Shown here: positions 46,883 through 56,185 of the stretch, one piece after another | Numbering within the stretch: the stretch's first letter is position 1 | Layout of the letters: each line of letters starts with the position of its first letter | NCBI GenBank assembly: GCA_017516315.1 | Contig: JAFXDE010000028.1 | Location: 1 to 60,493, forward strand | Reading direction: 5' to 3' | Length of the DNA: 60,493 nucleotides | DNA from: Clostridia bacterium | GTDB taxonomy: Bacteria > Bacillota > Clostridia > Oscillospirales > Acutalibacteraceae | Notes under the pieces: generated by a model | Database searches by the model: none | What the model was told of the DNA's origin: nothing | What the model saw: the letters and a program-made list of their open reading frames with translations, nothing else | Translations under genes and position numbers: made by a program

Positions 46883-48403
46883 TTGAAAAAAACTATCAGT
46901 ATTTTTATCTGCATTTTAATAGCCTTCTGCATCTTCTCCGCCTGTAAAAAAAATGAGAACGAGCCTGTACAGGAAACTACTGCCGAAGCAGAAACCACAG
47001 CTTTACCCGCAGCAGAAAAAAGCATAACTCTCGGCTATTTCGAGAGCAAGGGCTTCAATCCCTACAAAACAGACAGTCCTCTTAACAGAAATCTGCTTAC
47101 CCTCATTTATGACAGTCTTTTCATCGTCGAGGACGGCTATACCGTATCGCCTCTTATCGCCGAAAGCTTTACTAACGACGGTAACCTGCTTACCGTCACC
47201 ATAAAGGACGAGCTGTATTTTTCCGACGGAAGCCTCGTAGACCCGTCAGATGTGGTTTACTCCTTCAATATGGCAAAGGACAATTCATTTTACGGAAAAA
47301 GACTCTCAAATGTAAAATCTGCCACCGCATCGGATACTTCCGTTCTTTTCACTCTCGGTAAGGAGGATATTTTTGCCGAGGGCTGTCTTACCTTTCCCAT
47401 AATAAGAGCTGGTGACGGCGGAGAAAAAACTCCCGTGGGAAGCGGAAGATATATCCTTAAGAAAAAAGACGGTGCCTATTTCCTGAAGGCCAACGAAACC
47501 ACTACGAGAAAAGAGGAAATGTCTACCGACAGAATAAGCCTCGTTCCCGTAAGCGCCGACGAGGGTGAGCTTTATCTTCTCCAAACAGGCGACCTTTCCT
47601 ATTTCTTTGACGATTTAAGCGACGGAGAATACACAAAAATAGGCGCAAATATGGTTAAAATGCCTCTTAATAATCTGGTCTTTCTATCCTTTAACAGCGA
47701 AGGCGCCTTCGCCGATGAAAGTCTTAAGGAGGCTGTTAATCTCGCTATCGACAGGACGGGGCTTTGCGATAAAATTTACGAGGGTATGTACCGTAAAACC
47801 AAAAGCGTTTTCAATCCGGACTGGTATGCCGCCTCTTCCGTTTCCGTCAGCGAAAACCCCTACAGCCTAAAGGACGCTGAAAGCATTCTCGAAAAAAACG
47901 GTTACATTTATGCTTATTCATATAACGCCTACCGTTCAAAGAATTTCGAATTCTTAAAGCTCAGGCTTCTCGTATGCAGTGACACCGAGGCTAAGGCTTC
48001 TCTTGCCAAGGAGATTAAAAAAGCTCTGGAAGGCATCGGAATCGGTGTAGAGCTTTACGAAAAGGAATACAGCGAATACATCAGCAGTCTAAAAAGCGGA
48101 GATTTCGACCTTTATATAGGCGAAATCAAGCTTTCTCCGAATATGTCTCTTTCGCCCTTCTTCTCATCGGGCGGAAGCGCAAGCTACGGAATAGATACTA
48201 AAAGTGTAGCAGCCAAGGCTTATTTCGATTTTACTGAGGGCGCTATAGATATTTCTACCTTTGTCCAGGTCTTTGACAGCGCTCTGCCCTTTATACCTCT
48301 GTGCTACCGCGACGGCATGGCTTACTACTCCCGTGAGCTTTCCTACGAAGGAAATGTAAACGAATACGAGCCCTTTAAGAATGTGTACAGCTGGGAAGCG
48401 TAA
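46883..48403 (+). CDS. family 5 solute-binding lipoprotein (oligopeptide/dipeptide type)
   Basis: About 506 residues. A lipoprotein signal peptide ends at the lipobox IFSAC, with Cys near residue 22, followed by a Glu/Thr-rich linker. The mature part matches SBP_bac_5: NRNLLTLIYDSLFI, LYFSDGSLVDPSDVVYSF, ESLKEAVNLAIDRTGLCDKIY and SLKSGDFDLYIGEIKLSP. Such proteins deliver peptides, nickel or sugars to ABC importers. The best-spaced start is a TTG at 46883, six bases after GAGGTG; the GTG at 46874 overlaps that site. No permease or ATPase genes follow, so this is an orphan binding protein that must pair with a distant importer or serve in signalling. Confidence 0.9.
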   Translation: MKKTISIFICILIAFCIFSACKKNENEPVQETTAEAETTALPAAEKSITLGYFESKGFNPYKTDSPLNRNLLTLIYDSLFIVEDGYTVSPLIAESFTNDGNLLTVTIKDELYFSDGSLVDPSDVVYSFNMAKDNSFYGKRLSNVKSATASDTSVLFTLGKEDIFAEGCLTFPIIRAGDGGEKTPVGSGRYILKKKDGAYFLKANETTTRKEEMSTDRISLVPVSADEGELYLLQTGDLSYFFDDLSDGEYTKIGANMVKMPLNNLVFLSFNSEGAFADESLKEAVNLAIDRTGLCDKIYEGMYRKTKSVFNPDWYAASSVSVSENPYSLKDAESILEKNGYIYAYSYNAYRSKNFEFLKLRLLVCSDTEAKASLAKEIKKALEGIGIGVELYEKEYSEYISSLKSGDFDLYIGEIKLSPNMSLSPFFSSGGSASYGIDTKSVAAKAYFDFTEGAIDISTFVQVFDSALPFIPLCYRDGMAYYSRELSYEGNVNEYEPFKNVYSWEA

Positions 48404-48408
48404 AATGA

Positions 48409-48681
48409 ATGCAAAGTGCAAAATGCAAAATAAAGGGTCACTTCGTTCCGGATTATAGCCGTGTAAGATTACAATACAAATTTATCTTTACACCGCCAAA
48501 CTGCTTTTTACAATAAAAAAGATTAAAATTTACTCTTTACCTTTTACTACGCACTTTTCTCTGCGGAGATAACTCTAAAATATTATACCGTGATAAATCC
48601 GCGACCGACATTTTGAATTTTGCATTTTGAATTTTGCATTTACTGTGGCGACCACAATTTTGCATTTTGCATTCTGCATTT
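48409..48681. repeat. ATGCAAA-type inverted repeat element (copy 1)
   Basis: Left arm 48409-48434 is a run of ATGCAAA/GTGCAAA units; right arms at 48611-48651 and 48656-48681 are runs of the complement (TTTTGCAT, TTTTGAAT, TTCTGCAT). About 180 bases without a gene lie between. The left arm starts 6 bases after the stop codon at 48403; the right arm ends 20 bases before the recG start and just before its ribosome site. The arms can fold into a long AT-rich stem in the transcript. Confidence 0.7.
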
Positions 48682-48700
48682 AAAAGAAGGGAGGATAAAA

Positions 48701-51365: not shown

Positions 51366-53339
51366 GTGGAAAGCAATAAGGAACGCTTCAAAAAAGAGCT
51401 TTCGGATACCGTATCCTTTAATCTTAACGACGCATACTTTCTCGATGACGATGTCCCCTATTCACCCTTCAGCGGTGAGGAGGCAGCAGAGATTATCCTT
51501 CCCGTGGAGGAAGAATCACCTGCAGCTATTATAAGCCAGACCGAAAGCCCCGAAAAAAGTCCGCTTACGAAAAAAAGCCTACCCGAAAAAAGGGTAAAGC
51601 TCTCCGATTTTGATATTACATCCGTTATTTATACGGCGGGAGATAAAATCGAATATGTGGGCGAGGAAACAATAAAGCTTTTCAAATATATTATCTCTAA
51701 GGTTTCACCCCTGTTCGTTATACCCTGGCTTCTTATAAGCAATCTTGCCTCAGCCTTATGGAAAAAAACGAGACAGCTTCCTGAAAAAATCAATCTGAGC
51801 TTTAATGACGATATAAAGAGAATAGCTCTCGAAATAAAGGCAATCTCAAACGCCGCCAGGGCGGTAAAGAAAAAGAAAAGGCTCGTCTTTGTGAAGGCTA
51901 TGGCAAAGTATTTCCTTATGTCCTTCAGAAGACATAATCATTTCTGGAAAACCCTCTTTAATATCGCTCTTCCCCTGGGAACCTGCTTTATTATTCTGCT
52001 TACGGGCAAGGCTCTGTCCAAGGACAGCACCTTCGCTCTGGAGGTTATTTATAACGGCAGCTCCTTAGGATATATCGAAAATACGGATACCTTCGAAAAG
52101 GGCAGAAGCCAGGCTCTTGCTCTTCTCTCCTCTTCGCAGGAAAGCGACACCGTAAAGCTGAATACACAGCCTCAGTATAAATTCAGCAGAGTAAAAATTA
52201 ACGAGCTTAGTAATGCTCAGATGATAAGTGAAGGTATTATCTCAAAAAGCGGCGAAAGCTATGTCCGCGCCTGCGGTGTTTACATCAACGGCGAATTCAT
52301 CTGCGCCGTTAAAAATGAATCCGACGCTGTAGCAGTTTTCTCTAAAATTCTCGCTCCCTACGAGGCCAAGGCCGAGGAAGGCACTATGGTAAGCTTCGTA
52401 GAAGAGATAGAATATATCCAGGGCTACTATAAAGAAAACAGCGACCTTATCTGGGACACTACAAAGCTCCAGGATATGCTCTCCGGGCCGAAGTCCGAGG
52501 CAAAATACCATCGTGTAAGGAAGGGTGACACTCAGGCATCAGTAGCCAAGCAGTACGGTCTTACCCGTAAACAGCTCCGCGCCCTTAACCCCGGCAAGGA
52601 TTTCTCTGACTTTTCCTCCATAAAAAGGCTTCTCGTAGCCGAAGAGGAAAGCTATGTCAGAGTCAAGGTTATGAAAACACGCACACGAAAGGTCTCCATC
52701 CCCTACGAAACTATCGAAAAGCAAAGCTCCTCTCTGGCTAAGGGTACTAAGAAAACCTCACAGAACGGTGCTTACGGACAGAAGGTTATCACTGAGCTTG
52801 TCACCTATATCAACGGTGAAATCTCCTACACCTCCTTCCTTTCGGAAAAGGTGACGAAGAATCCCGTTAACAAGATAGTTCTTATCGGTACCAAAACCTA
52901 TTCCTCCCCCGTCTACGGCGGTGCGGTAACCTCACGGGGCTTCACCTGGCCTACCCGCGGTGCTTACAGTATTTCCTCACGCTACGGCTACAGAAATCCC
53001 GGCATTTCCGGCTGGGGCTTCCACGGAGGTATAGACATTATCCGTTACGGCGGCTCCTCGGGCATTCCCGTAGTAGCTTCTGCCTCAGGTACGGTAGTAA
53101 CAGCCTACAGCGGCTGGTCAGGCTACGGACACACGGTAGTCATCAACCACGGAAACGGCTTCACCACCCGTTATGCACACATGCAGCCCGGCTCAATCTG
53201 TGTAAGAGCAGGACAGTATGTATATCAAGGTCAGCAGATAGGACGTATAGGCTCTACAGGTAACTCCACCGGTCCTCACCTTCATTTCGAGGTGCTCGTT
53301 TACGGCCGAAAGGTTAATCCGCTGAACTACGTCAGATAA
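51366..53339 (+). CDS. membrane-anchored LysM/G5/M23 cell-wall endopeptidase
   Basis: 657 residues from a GTG start behind GAGGTG. The first 190 or so residues are charged and probably cytoplasmic, with an amphipathic or hydrophobic patch near 113-135 (PLFVIPWLLISNL). A membrane helix lies near 195-214 (LFNIALPLGTCFIILL). Outside are a spacer, a LysM domain (about 380-425, RVRKGDTQASVAKQYGLT), a G5 domain (about 438-510) and the M23 peptidase (about 529-657). The zinc site uses HGGID and HLHFE, with YAHM between. M23 enzymes cut peptidoglycan cross-bridges. A long cytoplasmic head is unusual in this class and could couple the enzyme to division or signalling proteins. Confidence 0.93.
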   Translation: MESNKERFKKELSDTVSFNLNDAYFLDDDVPYSPFSGEEAAEIILPVEEESPAAIISQTESPEKSPLTKKSLPEKRVKLSDFDITSVIYTAGDKIEYVGEETIKLFKYIISKVSPLFVIPWLLISNLASALWKKTRQLPEKINLSFNDDIKRIALEIKAISNAARAVKKKKRLVFVKAMAKYFLMSFRRHNHFWKTLFNIALPLGTCFIILLTGKALSKDSTFALEVIYNGSSLGYIENTDTFEKGRSQALALLSSSQESDTVKLNTQPQYKFSRVKINELSNAQMISEGIISKSGESYVRACGVYINGEFICAVKNESDAVAVFSKILAPYEAKAEEGTMVSFVEEIEYIQGYYKENSDLIWDTTKLQDMLSGPKSEAKYHRVRKGDTQASVAKQYGLTRKQLRALNPGKDFSDFSSIKRLLVAEEESYVRVKVMKTRTRKVSIPYETIEKQSSSLAKGTKKTSQNGAYGQKVITELVTYINGEISYTSFLSEKVTKNPVNKIVLIGTKTYSSPVYGGAVTSRGFTWPTRGAYSISSRYGYRNPGISGWGFHGGIDIIRYGGSSGIPVVASASGTVVTAYSGWSGYGHTVVINHGNGFTTRYAHMQPGSICVRAGQYVYQGQQIGRIGSTGNSTGPHLHFEVLVYGRKVNPLNYVR

Positions 53340-53372
53340 ATGCAAAGTGCAAAATGCAAAATGCAAAGTGGC
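53340..53372 (+). repeat. ATGCAAA-type short repeats after the M23 stop codon
   Basis: Four units of the TGCAAA type begin at the base after the stop codon. No complementary arm is evident close by, so this is a half element compared with the copies at 48.4 and 56.0 kb. The nearest complementary unit is an isolated ATTCTGCATTT at 54442-54452, directly after the antiporter stop codon. Confidence 0.65.
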
Positions 53373-53427
53373 GTGGAAGACTTCAGAAGAATGAAGCTAC
53401 AGTCCGCCGAATAAACAGAATATAACA

Positions 53428-53465: not shown

Positions 53466-53960
53466 TTAATAGCAGATACTGCAAGGCTTTCTTCCGAAGC
53501 TTTCCGCGGTCTCTGTATCTGTTTCGAAGGCCGTTCTTCCAGCACAGTAAATATCGCTGTGATACTTTTTGCCCGAAGGAGTGGCATATACTATTTCGCT
53601 TATTTCTTTTTGAGGCTTTTCCATCTGATAAAGAAGCTCACCGTCACTGTTGATAACGAAAGCTTCTGAGCCTGTTTCGGAAAGGTTTATTTTTTTGCCG
53701 TTAGATACGAAAAAAAGATCATCCTTGTAATGAAGCTCGGCATCTCCAACCTTATATGTTTTTTCTTCAAAATTCACTTCCGTTACAGTAATATCCTCTG
53801 CTGTTTCGCAGTATACCACTATGTTATGGTCGCCGAATTCAAATCGTATGACAGACGGAATCGGTCTGAGGTTTTCATAAAGATAATAAGACAGAAGTAA
53901 ATTGCAGACAACTGACAGAACAAAAAAAAGTCTAAAAAACACTTTCATTGCTTTTTTCAT
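53466..53960 (-). CDS. small anchored protein with C-terminal Cys/His motif
   Basis: 164 residues, unrecognised. An N-terminal membrane helix (KVFFRLFFVLSVVCNLLLSYYLY) is followed by a beta-rich region (residues 40-120) and a short C-terminal motif: SGKKYHSDIYCAG, a 13-residue spacer with TAESFG, then KPCSICY. The His-x4-Cys ... Cys-x2-Cys spacing suggests a small zinc-binding knuckle. Similar motifs end many uncharacterised Firmicutes membrane proteins and resemble the Ada-type metal site. The ATG at 53960 is chosen because GGTGGAGGA lies 8 bases upstream. Directly before that ribosome site are a terminator hairpin and a structured RNA (53983-54146), so expression may depend on readthrough. 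Confidence 0.75.
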   Translation of the reverse strand: MKKAMKVFFRLFFVLSVVCNLLLSYYLYENLRPIPSVIRFEFGDHNIVVYCETAEDITVTEVNFEEKTYKVGDAELHYKDDLFFVSNGKKINLSETGSEAFVINSDGELLYQMEKPQKEISEIVYATPSGKKYHSDIYCAGRTAFETDTETAESFGRKPCSICY

Positions 53961-53982
53961 ACTATACTTCCTCCACCTTGGT

Positions 53983-54146
53983 AAAAATAAAAAGTGCGCC
54001 ATTAAGACGCACCGAAAAATGCATCTCATTTGTTGTCACACAAATCCTACTAATCCAACAAAGAATAGCAAAGCAAGAGATACACTTTTACCAAAGTGTT
54101 TCTCTTTGTTGGATCAAATATTCAGATTTGTGTGACGAGAATAATT
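53983..54146 (-). ncRNA. candidate structured leader or small RNA with terminator
   Basis: On the minus strand a promoter-like TATAAT (54158-54153) would start a transcript near 54146. The RNA first folds into three nested stems: 12 bp perfect (54125-54136 with 54035-54046), 11 bp perfect (54104-54114 with 54053-54063) and 7 bp (54093-54099 with 54082-54088). It then meets an intrinsic terminator, GTGCG (53994-53998 as paired with 54008-54012) followed on the minus strand by TTTTTATTTTT. The ribosome site and ATG of the small anchored protein come about 20 bases later. This is the order expected of a riboswitch or attenuator, or of an independent sRNA. No known class was recognised. Confidence 0.6.
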
Positions 54147-54152
54147 TACCAC

Positions 54153-54158
54153 ATTATA
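54153..54158 (-). promoter_or_regulatory. -10 box of the structured RNA
   Basis: A perfect TATAAT on the minus strand, 7 bases before the predicted transcript start. The -35 position (54176-54181) reads TATTCA, a weak match to TTGACA, so the promoter may need an activator or be of moderate strength. Confidence 0.5.
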
Positions 54159-54211
54159 CAGAAAAAATCAATATTTGAATAAAATAAAATATCTGTATCT
54201 TCTAAGAAACA

Positions 54212-55908: not shown

Positions 55909-55962
55909 AAGTATAACCTGACATAAAGACGGTTTTTACCCTCTGAGGATAAGGCAACAGGA

Positions 55963-56125
55963 AAATGCAGAATGCAGAATGCAAAATGCAAAATAAGAGG
56001 TTTTCCGATTATATGCATATCGCATTCCGAAAAAAAGAAAGTAATAATCTTTTCTGACAGAGCTATACACCGATGCGGTAAATTTTTGACCGCAATTCTG
56101 CATTTTGAATTTTGCATTTTGCATT
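55963..56125. repeat. ATGCAAA-type inverted repeat element (copy 2)
   Basis: Left arm 55963-55994 (ATGCAGA and ATGCAAA units) and right arm about 56095-56125 (TTCTGCAT, TTTTGAAT, TTTTGCAT units) are near-perfect inverses around a centre of about 100 bases. The centre has short stretches in common with copy 1 (TCCGATTATA versus TCCGGATTATA, and a GCGGTAAA/GACCG-like block before the right arm). That suggests two diverged copies of one miniature element. It sits in the untranslated leader of the hyd operon. Confidence 0.7.
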
Positions 56126-56185
56126 ATATACAGTTGCCATACTCTTTAAAAGGGTGTGGCATTTTCATTTGTTAAGGAGGCATTT

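Follow-up and report, generated by a model that had tools for sequence, protein, structure and literature searches.

A family of candidate transcription attenuators with four competing helices, spread through the Clostridia and absent from Rfam 15

Attenuating riboswitches, and the orphan candidates that resemble them, sit in the 5′ leader with a gene start just downstream, keep conserved loops among variable stems that stay paired, and combine a mutually exclusive anti-antiterminator, antiterminator and intrinsic terminator. The RNA described here is built in the same way, but its family is not in Rfam 15, it occurs in tandem units that each have their own promoter and terminator, and the genes behind it share no pathway that would suggest a ligand. 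A second related arrangement is the type III ToxI RNA, in which a promoter, a structured RNA of tandem repeats and a terminator precede a gene of about 165 aa, the repeats being short and standing before one kind of toxin. The order of parts and the tandem copies are alike in our family, whereas its downstream genes come from many unrelated families, led by BspA repeats; a type III antitoxin RNA was rejected, as no ToxN/CptN/TenpN-type toxin appeared among the 25 Pfam/PADLOC families listed for 121 downstream proteins. In Firmicutes, LoaP/dfn leader elements let RNA polymerase past terminators; in contrast to what such a partnership would require, LoaP scoring over the cut-off never co-occurs with our RNA in 291 genomes of the class. 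Finally, Naville and Gautheret (2010) reported IS-borne mobile attenuators with highly conserved terminators and a recent spread (PMC2965389). They resemble our family in that related, terminator-bearing sequences stand before unrelated genes, and differ in that our family diverges in sequence across a bacterial class with its structure kept.

The window, i.e., the whole 60,493-nucleotide stretch of DNA that was analysed, contains one copy of a large RNA family. We consider this RNA to be a cis-acting transcription attenuator, a member of a class-wide family of orphan riboswitch-like leaders, with a probability of about 0.78; as such, it probably sets whether the gene behind it is transcribed. 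Its parts are as follows.

54166..54171, minus strand: -35 hexamer TTGATT, at 17-nt spacing to the -10 hexamer; a TTGA/TTGC upstream block is common to the genus copies
54143..54148, minus strand: extended -10 hexamer TAAATT (TGG before it), in the register of the family copies
53983..54136, minus strand: whole RNA, the predicted transcript from the first base of P1 to the end of the U-run; covariance model match 53988-54136, 134 bits
54125..54136, minus strand: 5′ arm of P1; both-side changes in 10 of 12 pairs (32 copies)
54035..54046, minus strand: 3′ arm of P1, pairing with the 5′ arm over 12 perfect bp
54103..54114, minus strand: 5′ arm of P2, 12 bp perfect, seen in the fold; sequence hypervariable among copies
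54053..54064, minus strand: 3′ arm of P2, partner of the 5′ arm
54093..54105, minus strand: strand B, 5′ side of the apical hairpin P3, which shares its initial bases with the P2 arm; the B:A pairing is kept
54077..54089, minus strand: strand A, 3′ side of P3, AAAAGTGTATCTC; partner of B or of X
54099-54093 with 54088-54082, minus strand: inner stem of 7 bp, read directly from the sequence
54065..54076, minus strand: bulge separating P3 from the 3′ arm of P2, unpaired in the predicted fold
54015..54027, minus strand: strand X, GAGATGCATTTTT, able by sequence to pair with A over 13 bp and also with T5
54006..54013, minus strand: strand T5, 5′ half of the terminator; T5:T3 z -27.7, n=180 copies
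53993..54000, minus strand: strand T3, 3′ half of the terminator, from the terminator scan and family pairing
53983..53993, minus strand: U-run TTTTTATTTTT; its first T doubles as the last base of T3
54013-53983, minus strand: terminator hairpin GGTGCGTC/GGCGCACT with TTTTTATTTTT, as read from the sequence
53970..53974, minus strand: GGAGG ribosome site for the downstream gene, as read from the sequence
53466..53960, minus strand: downstream gene, ATG at 53960, for a 164-aa protein that has a hydrophobic stretch at its N terminus and a Cys/His motif at its C terminus

With a predicted energy of -65.4 kcal/mol, the minus-strand fold is more stable than every one of 200 dinucleotide shuffles, which average -41.4 kcal/mol (sd 4.1; z -5.9), and the terminator is the sole one in a scan of 421 bases, where 0.2 would be expected. 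Each family copy is about 155 nt long, with a promoter at its start and an intrinsic terminator at its end, and in most cases the ribosome site of a gene comes some 20 nt behind it. The layout runs from the 5′ arm of P1 through a conserved AUA element and the hypervariable P2 to the apical P3 with its GGUAAAA loop, and from there through a bulge of unpaired bases and the P2 and P1 3′ arms to a linker (mostly 7 nt, in 88 of 160 copies), strand X and the terminator. An earlier note on this DNA had described three nested stems, a terminator hairpin with a T tail, a ribosome site and an ATG at 53960. Its 12-bp stem corresponds to P1, which is perfect (54136-54125 with 54046-54035, minus strand), its 7-bp inner stem is found at 54099-54093/54088-54082, and the hairpin, the GGAGG and the ATG were all confirmed on the minus strand. 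The 11-bp stem is likewise present and perfect, but P2 is counted as 12 bp (54114-54103 with 54064-54053). A separate hairpin, which the note had described as a terminator isolating the unit from the antiporter, was seen near 54245-54214; its loop is too long for the terminator scan, hence it is unlisted there.

Comparison among the copies fixes the register of the promoter. Exactly 6 nt lie between the -10 box and the first base of P1 in 153 of 181 copies, so that transcription should begin on P1, and a -35 box with at least 4 of 6 matches at 16-18 nt spacing is found in 137 of 181. The promoter sequence itself is conserved within the genus; outside it the promoters are, among the copies listed, ordinary sigma-70 TTGACA/TATAAT types. 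From the usual -10 spacing, the exact start would be the first base of P1. A promoter scan of the 421-base stretch (at least 9 of 12 matches needed) found none where 1.5 would be expected by chance, and neither version of the promoter is listed by it. The second version is a TATAAT box, proposed earlier together with a transcript start near 54146. The box does exist, at 54158-54153, but relatives do not keep it, and it is probably not the -10; we rejected it, as it is not conserved and the register is set elsewhere by 153 of 181 copies, which because of the 6-nt distance to P1 also moves the predicted start from 54146 to about 54136.

A search with the 216-base leader at E 0.001 returned only the leader itself in its own genome and many relatives in the genus, part of them in tandem; 40 stretches were collected and 32 copies aligned (alignment A1). 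The covariance model R1, built from relatives, matched in 29 of 34 genomes of the genus, in 97 of 295 of the order (E 1e-3) and in 73 of 291 of the class (E 1e-5), with the own genome counted each time. Two draws from the phylum, which consisted mainly of other classes and a few genomes from the same order and class, yielded the own genome alone, both among 199 genomes searched with R1 and among 299 searched with R2, a broader model. With R2 the own genome shows four matches (contigs C36, which is the window, C11, C22 and C18) and one genus genome holds 26 R1 matches; copy numbers from searches over more than 40 genomes are lower bounds, because stricter filters were applied and few candidates scored. 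Named genomes scanned by pattern yielded 33 stretches, 12 of which were confirmed by model search (L086, L098, L102, L118 and eight more), and a further set of pattern stretches was used in model building. When 13 pattern loci were model-searched in one run, 8 matched, and L088, L089, L091, L092 and L110, having no match, were taken as chance. The confirmed pattern copies lie in records whose titles read Clostridia, Ruminococcus sp. or Candidatus Borkfalkia; the sequences used for the model include Oscillospiraceae records, and many record titles name ruminant or rabbit gut.

The earlier note had recognised no known RNA class and had suggested a covariance model for comparison with Rfam. R1 reveals a class-wide family, and Rfam 15 has no match for it. 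Not one of the 4227 families in Rfam 15, among them the T-box and the known riboswitches, matched the window at gathering score, and in a search at loose E-values over the window stretch and 10 loci with copies no family reached gathering score on the RNA; the sole match above gathering score in the 10 loci is a tRNA beside the copy in L182. A known Rfam class was rejected on these grounds. The literature searched (including PMC11109978 and PMC8632094) does not name the family. Thousands of candidate motifs from human microbiomes are reported in PMC8040213, with the details in its supplementary tables, and the family may be present in that list under a number, without a name. The kind of element is thus known, namely attenuators and riboswitch-like leaders, and the family is absent from Rfam 15 and not named in the literature searched.

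Strand A is complementary to both B and X, and X is complementary to both A and T5, the first half of the terminator. Comparison of the copies shows four mutually exclusive predicted pairings to be kept, i.e., the apical hairpin B:A, A:X, X:T5 and T5:T3. We gathered 187 copies (68 + 119) and used 181 for pairing, the other 6 lacking the AAAA anchor. In these 181 copies, which are related to one another, true partners were more stable than swapped ones for B:A (-10.2 versus -6.0 kcal/mol, z -21.9), A:X (-13.6 versus -10.0, z -17.3) and X:T5 (-12.3 versus -8.8, z -17.7), and for none of the three did any of 2000 permutations reach the true-partner energy; T5:T3 gave -13.2 versus -9.2 kcal/mol (z -27.7, 180 rows). 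Control non-partners in the same 181 copies gave z -0.8 for A:T5 and z +2.5 for B:X, i.e., slightly worse than swapped. The signal persists among 159 distinct A/X combinations and within the own-genus (n=49), order (n=61) and class (n=55) groups, with z from -7.2 to -11.5 against controls between -1.3 and +1.1; four named-MAG loci were excluded from this grouped test. In at least 4 rows (L191, L207:2154 and L228 twice) strand A was put in the wrong place by the anchor rule; these rows were retained and weaken the signal, and some of the 21 of 181 copies with A:X weaker than -9 kcal/mol are such mis-anchored rows. In the window copy the predicted duplex energies are -15.0 kcal/mol for A:X and -12.9 for X:T5. 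The C18 copy of the same genome has A and X strands that are both unlike those of the window and, by eye, still match each other.

Column by column, the picture is graded. With 32 copies aligned by MAFFT, the set of P1, A:X and terminator is paired in 93.6% of cells, versus 35-59% when slid by 1-3 columns, and the two parts of the A:X helix are 97% and 81% paired. Changes on both sides affect 10 of 12 pairs in P1, 3 of 8 in the terminator and 2 of 13 in A:X, where mostly one side changes, so the shuffle result for the whole structure is carried largely by P1. The alternative set of P1, P3 and X:T5 pairs in 83.5% of cells, with both-side changes in 1 of 8 pairs of X:T5 and P3 paired in 65% of cells, the latter partly because the alignment is poor at P3. 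The aligned columns thus support P1 strongly, the terminator moderately and both A:X and X:T5 weakly; since both-side changes are few in the last two, their case rests mainly on the partner-swap energies. The predicted X:T5 pairing would exclude the terminator, and with z -17.7 against permuted partners, no signal in the control pairings and few both-side changes (1 of 8 pairs) it is a candidate antiterminator.

These pairings suggest how the switch might work. Transcription would begin at the first base of P1, and the P1-P2-P3 rod would fold before strand X emerges. As long as A is held in P3 by B, X would be free to pair with T5, forming an antiterminator in place of the terminator, and the gene would be read. 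Should A leave P3, it would pair with X, T5 would be free for T3 and transcription would stop before the gene. A:X would then be an anti-antiterminator, a loop-tail pseudoknot crossing P1 and P2 with both kept, for which slack could come from the linker of 7 nt and from the bulge, which measures some 12-14 nt. The balance may be set by anything that stabilises or breaks P3, whether a small molecule, an ion, a protein or an RNA. We infer the alternation of the pairings in time, a working terminator and antiterminator, which way the switch turns, and that a signal exists and what it may be. Mean predicted energies (n=180) are -10.9 kcal/mol for P3, -13.7 for A:X, -11.3 for the antiterminator and -15.3 for the terminator; they are close to one another, as one would expect if the switch can be tipped, and favour the terminated state.

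The interplay of A, X, T5 and T3 resembles that of amino-acid and antibiotic leader attenuators, in which ribosomes stalling on a leader peptide would decide the outcome. Such a mechanism is hardly credible here, since P1 begins at the predicted transcription start, and we rejected it because a short leader ORF, recognised by an ATG and a motif resembling a ribosome site, is found within the first 110 nt of only 2 of 181 copies.

In the window and across the family, a predicted intrinsic terminator lies between promoter and gene. Among 181 copies with at least 300 nt downstream (a count separate from the pairing set), 34 are followed by another copy within 400 nt. For the 147 single or last copies, an ORF with a ribosome site starts within 80 nt in 105, at a median of 23 nt for these, and within 150 nt in 120, which leaves 27 with no such ORF within 150 nt. 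The loci were chosen from the best-scoring matches, so these fractions describe strong copies. Every unit of a tandem array has its own promoter and terminator, which is odd for a plain leader.

The genes behind the RNA are diverse. The 164-aa protein of the window has no Pfam family at E up to 1, and matches to 67 Pfam families occur across the 121 downstream proteins; in the 25 families listed, BspA-type repeats account for 20 of 121 and the copper-amine-oxidase N-terminal domain for 6 of 121. BspA repeats do not appear in the 25 families listed for 148 other ORFs of the same loci, i.e., there is at most one case. A hydrophobic segment at the N terminus is present in 56 of 106 downstream proteins versus 29 of 148 controls (Fisher p 4.5e-8), the controls being mechanical ORFs that may include false ones. 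Altogether, the downstream proteins lean to surface and membrane types. One downstream protein has a strong PD-Lambda-1 match in PADLOC and 4 phosphoesterases match the NCBIfam anti-phage phosphoesterase model; a role in defence was rejected, as PADLOC families reach at most 2 of 121 downstream proteins each among the 25 listed.

So many unrelated genes under one RNA suggest a global regulator, and this regulator could be a dedicated RNA-binding antitermination protein in place of a small-molecule ligand, a sub-case of the attenuator that we think rather unlikely. The conserved GGUAAAA loop and AUA element would suit such a protein. The obvious candidate, LoaP, is on the contrary anti-correlated with the RNA: it scores over the cut-off in 47 of 291 class genomes, none of which is RNA-positive, and in 0 of 73 RNA-positive ones, and it was rejected as the partner.

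Matches to the window protein were found at 14 loci, with the RNA upstream of four fuller homologues from the same genus (L003, L004, L006, L013) and no RNA upstream at L005, a stop-containing relative, or at nine loci with the C-terminal motif. A phosphoesterase gene is present in 16 of 34 genus genomes and has the RNA just upstream in 6 of the 16. The other 10 have no convincing match, and the RNA thus seems dispensable at these genes; the ten include L299, which has a contig end at its start, and two distant homologues, L303 and L304, with 33-35% identity. Two of the RNA-less orthologues retain the promoter and the initial 15-20 nt of the RNA. In L293, compared with L292, the RNA body is gone and the promoter plus the first 15 nt of P1 stand directly before the ribosome site of the gene; in L291, compared with L290, the same promoter and start of P1 are followed by some 60 nt in which the alignment has become poor. 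The remnant of P1 suggests that both loci are losses, not ancestral states. L296 and L297 have a different promoter. A family of 77-aa proteins occurs in 22 of 291 class genomes, 20 of which are RNA-positive with R1 (Fisher p 1.6e-11) and a 21st, G442, with R2; the RNA lies directly upstream on the strand of the gene in 8 of 30 loci examined, and two members scanned gave no Pfam match over the cut-off. Loci of this family are L213, L239, L252, L255 and L308-L337.

Each unit has its own promoter and terminator, 34 of 181 copies are followed by another copy and not by a gene, and the terminated state is predicted to be the more stable, all of which would suit a stand-alone small RNA of about 155 nt that is constitutively terminated and acts in trans, the gene being served by leaky read-through. 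Any terminated leader is itself a short RNA, so that some room for this reading is left. We nevertheless find it unlikely: the ribosome site stands right behind the terminator, with 105 of 147 ORF starts within 80 nt, the X:T5 pairing is kept although a constitutive terminator would not need it, and the same promoter is retained for the gene where the RNA body is missing. The attenuator, which the earlier note had offered side by side with the small RNA, is favoured by the four competing helices, the nearby gene starts, the orthologues without an RNA body and the lack of an Rfam match.

The number and scatter of copies raise the question of a MITE-like mobile or repeated element that spreads a promoter and terminator through genomes. 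One genome has 26 matches, there are tandem arrays, several copies lie near contig ends, and one P2 sequence is common to copies before different genes (the first copy of L047, and L050). Scattered copies in unrelated intergenic sites, together with terminal duplications, had been named earlier as the mark of such an element; scattered and partly tandem they are, but they keep the promoter register and lie mostly just before genes. They are in register with a promoter that outside the genus is, in the copies listed, an ordinary sigma-70 one, they stand mostly just upstream of genes on the same strand (105 of 147 within 80 nt, with no random-site control for this figure), their internal pairing is kept across families, and the two loci without an RNA body look like internal deletions and not like clean excision. 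We therefore regard a mobile element as very improbable. A search of IMG/VR with one exact pattern and a blastn search of phage and plasmid collections with the window copy found nothing, and a phage or plasmid origin was rejected on these two results.

Returning to the attenuator, this structured RNA has no entry in Rfam 15; a single genome can have as many as 26 model matches to it, and roughly one in four of the class genomes sampled contains it. In animal-gut bacteria it seems to act as a gate for surface, membrane and accessory genes. It is tempting to speculate that it represents a new riboswitch class, which reads a global signal such as a second messenger, an ion or a nutrient and controls a regulon of surface, small-membrane and accessory genes in many Clostridia; we hold this tentatively, at somewhat below even odds. 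If so, each gene or array would bear its own promoter-plus-switch cassette, which would be gained, duplicated and lost independently of the gene, as the loci without an RNA body suggest. The four-strand switch yields exact mutations for testing, and the ligand or protein, once found, would open the whole regulon to study.

Several minor observations were made along the way. The two copies of the same genome on C11 and C22 (L178, L179) belong to a second RNA subtype with an ACCACAC P1 and a longer GTGTGTGC terminator, and precede lipoprotein-like and phosphoesterase genes. The fourth own-genome copy is L307 (C18:18242-18438), and the start of the gene behind it resembles, by eye, those of the genes behind the copies L197 and L200. 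Copies in L046, L047, L048, L068, L069 and L073 lie close to contig ends, as if repeats had broken the assemblies. In the window, intergenic repeats of ATGCAAAAT/ATTTTGCAT units occur on both strands at 48399-48682, 53330-53373 and 55962-56133.
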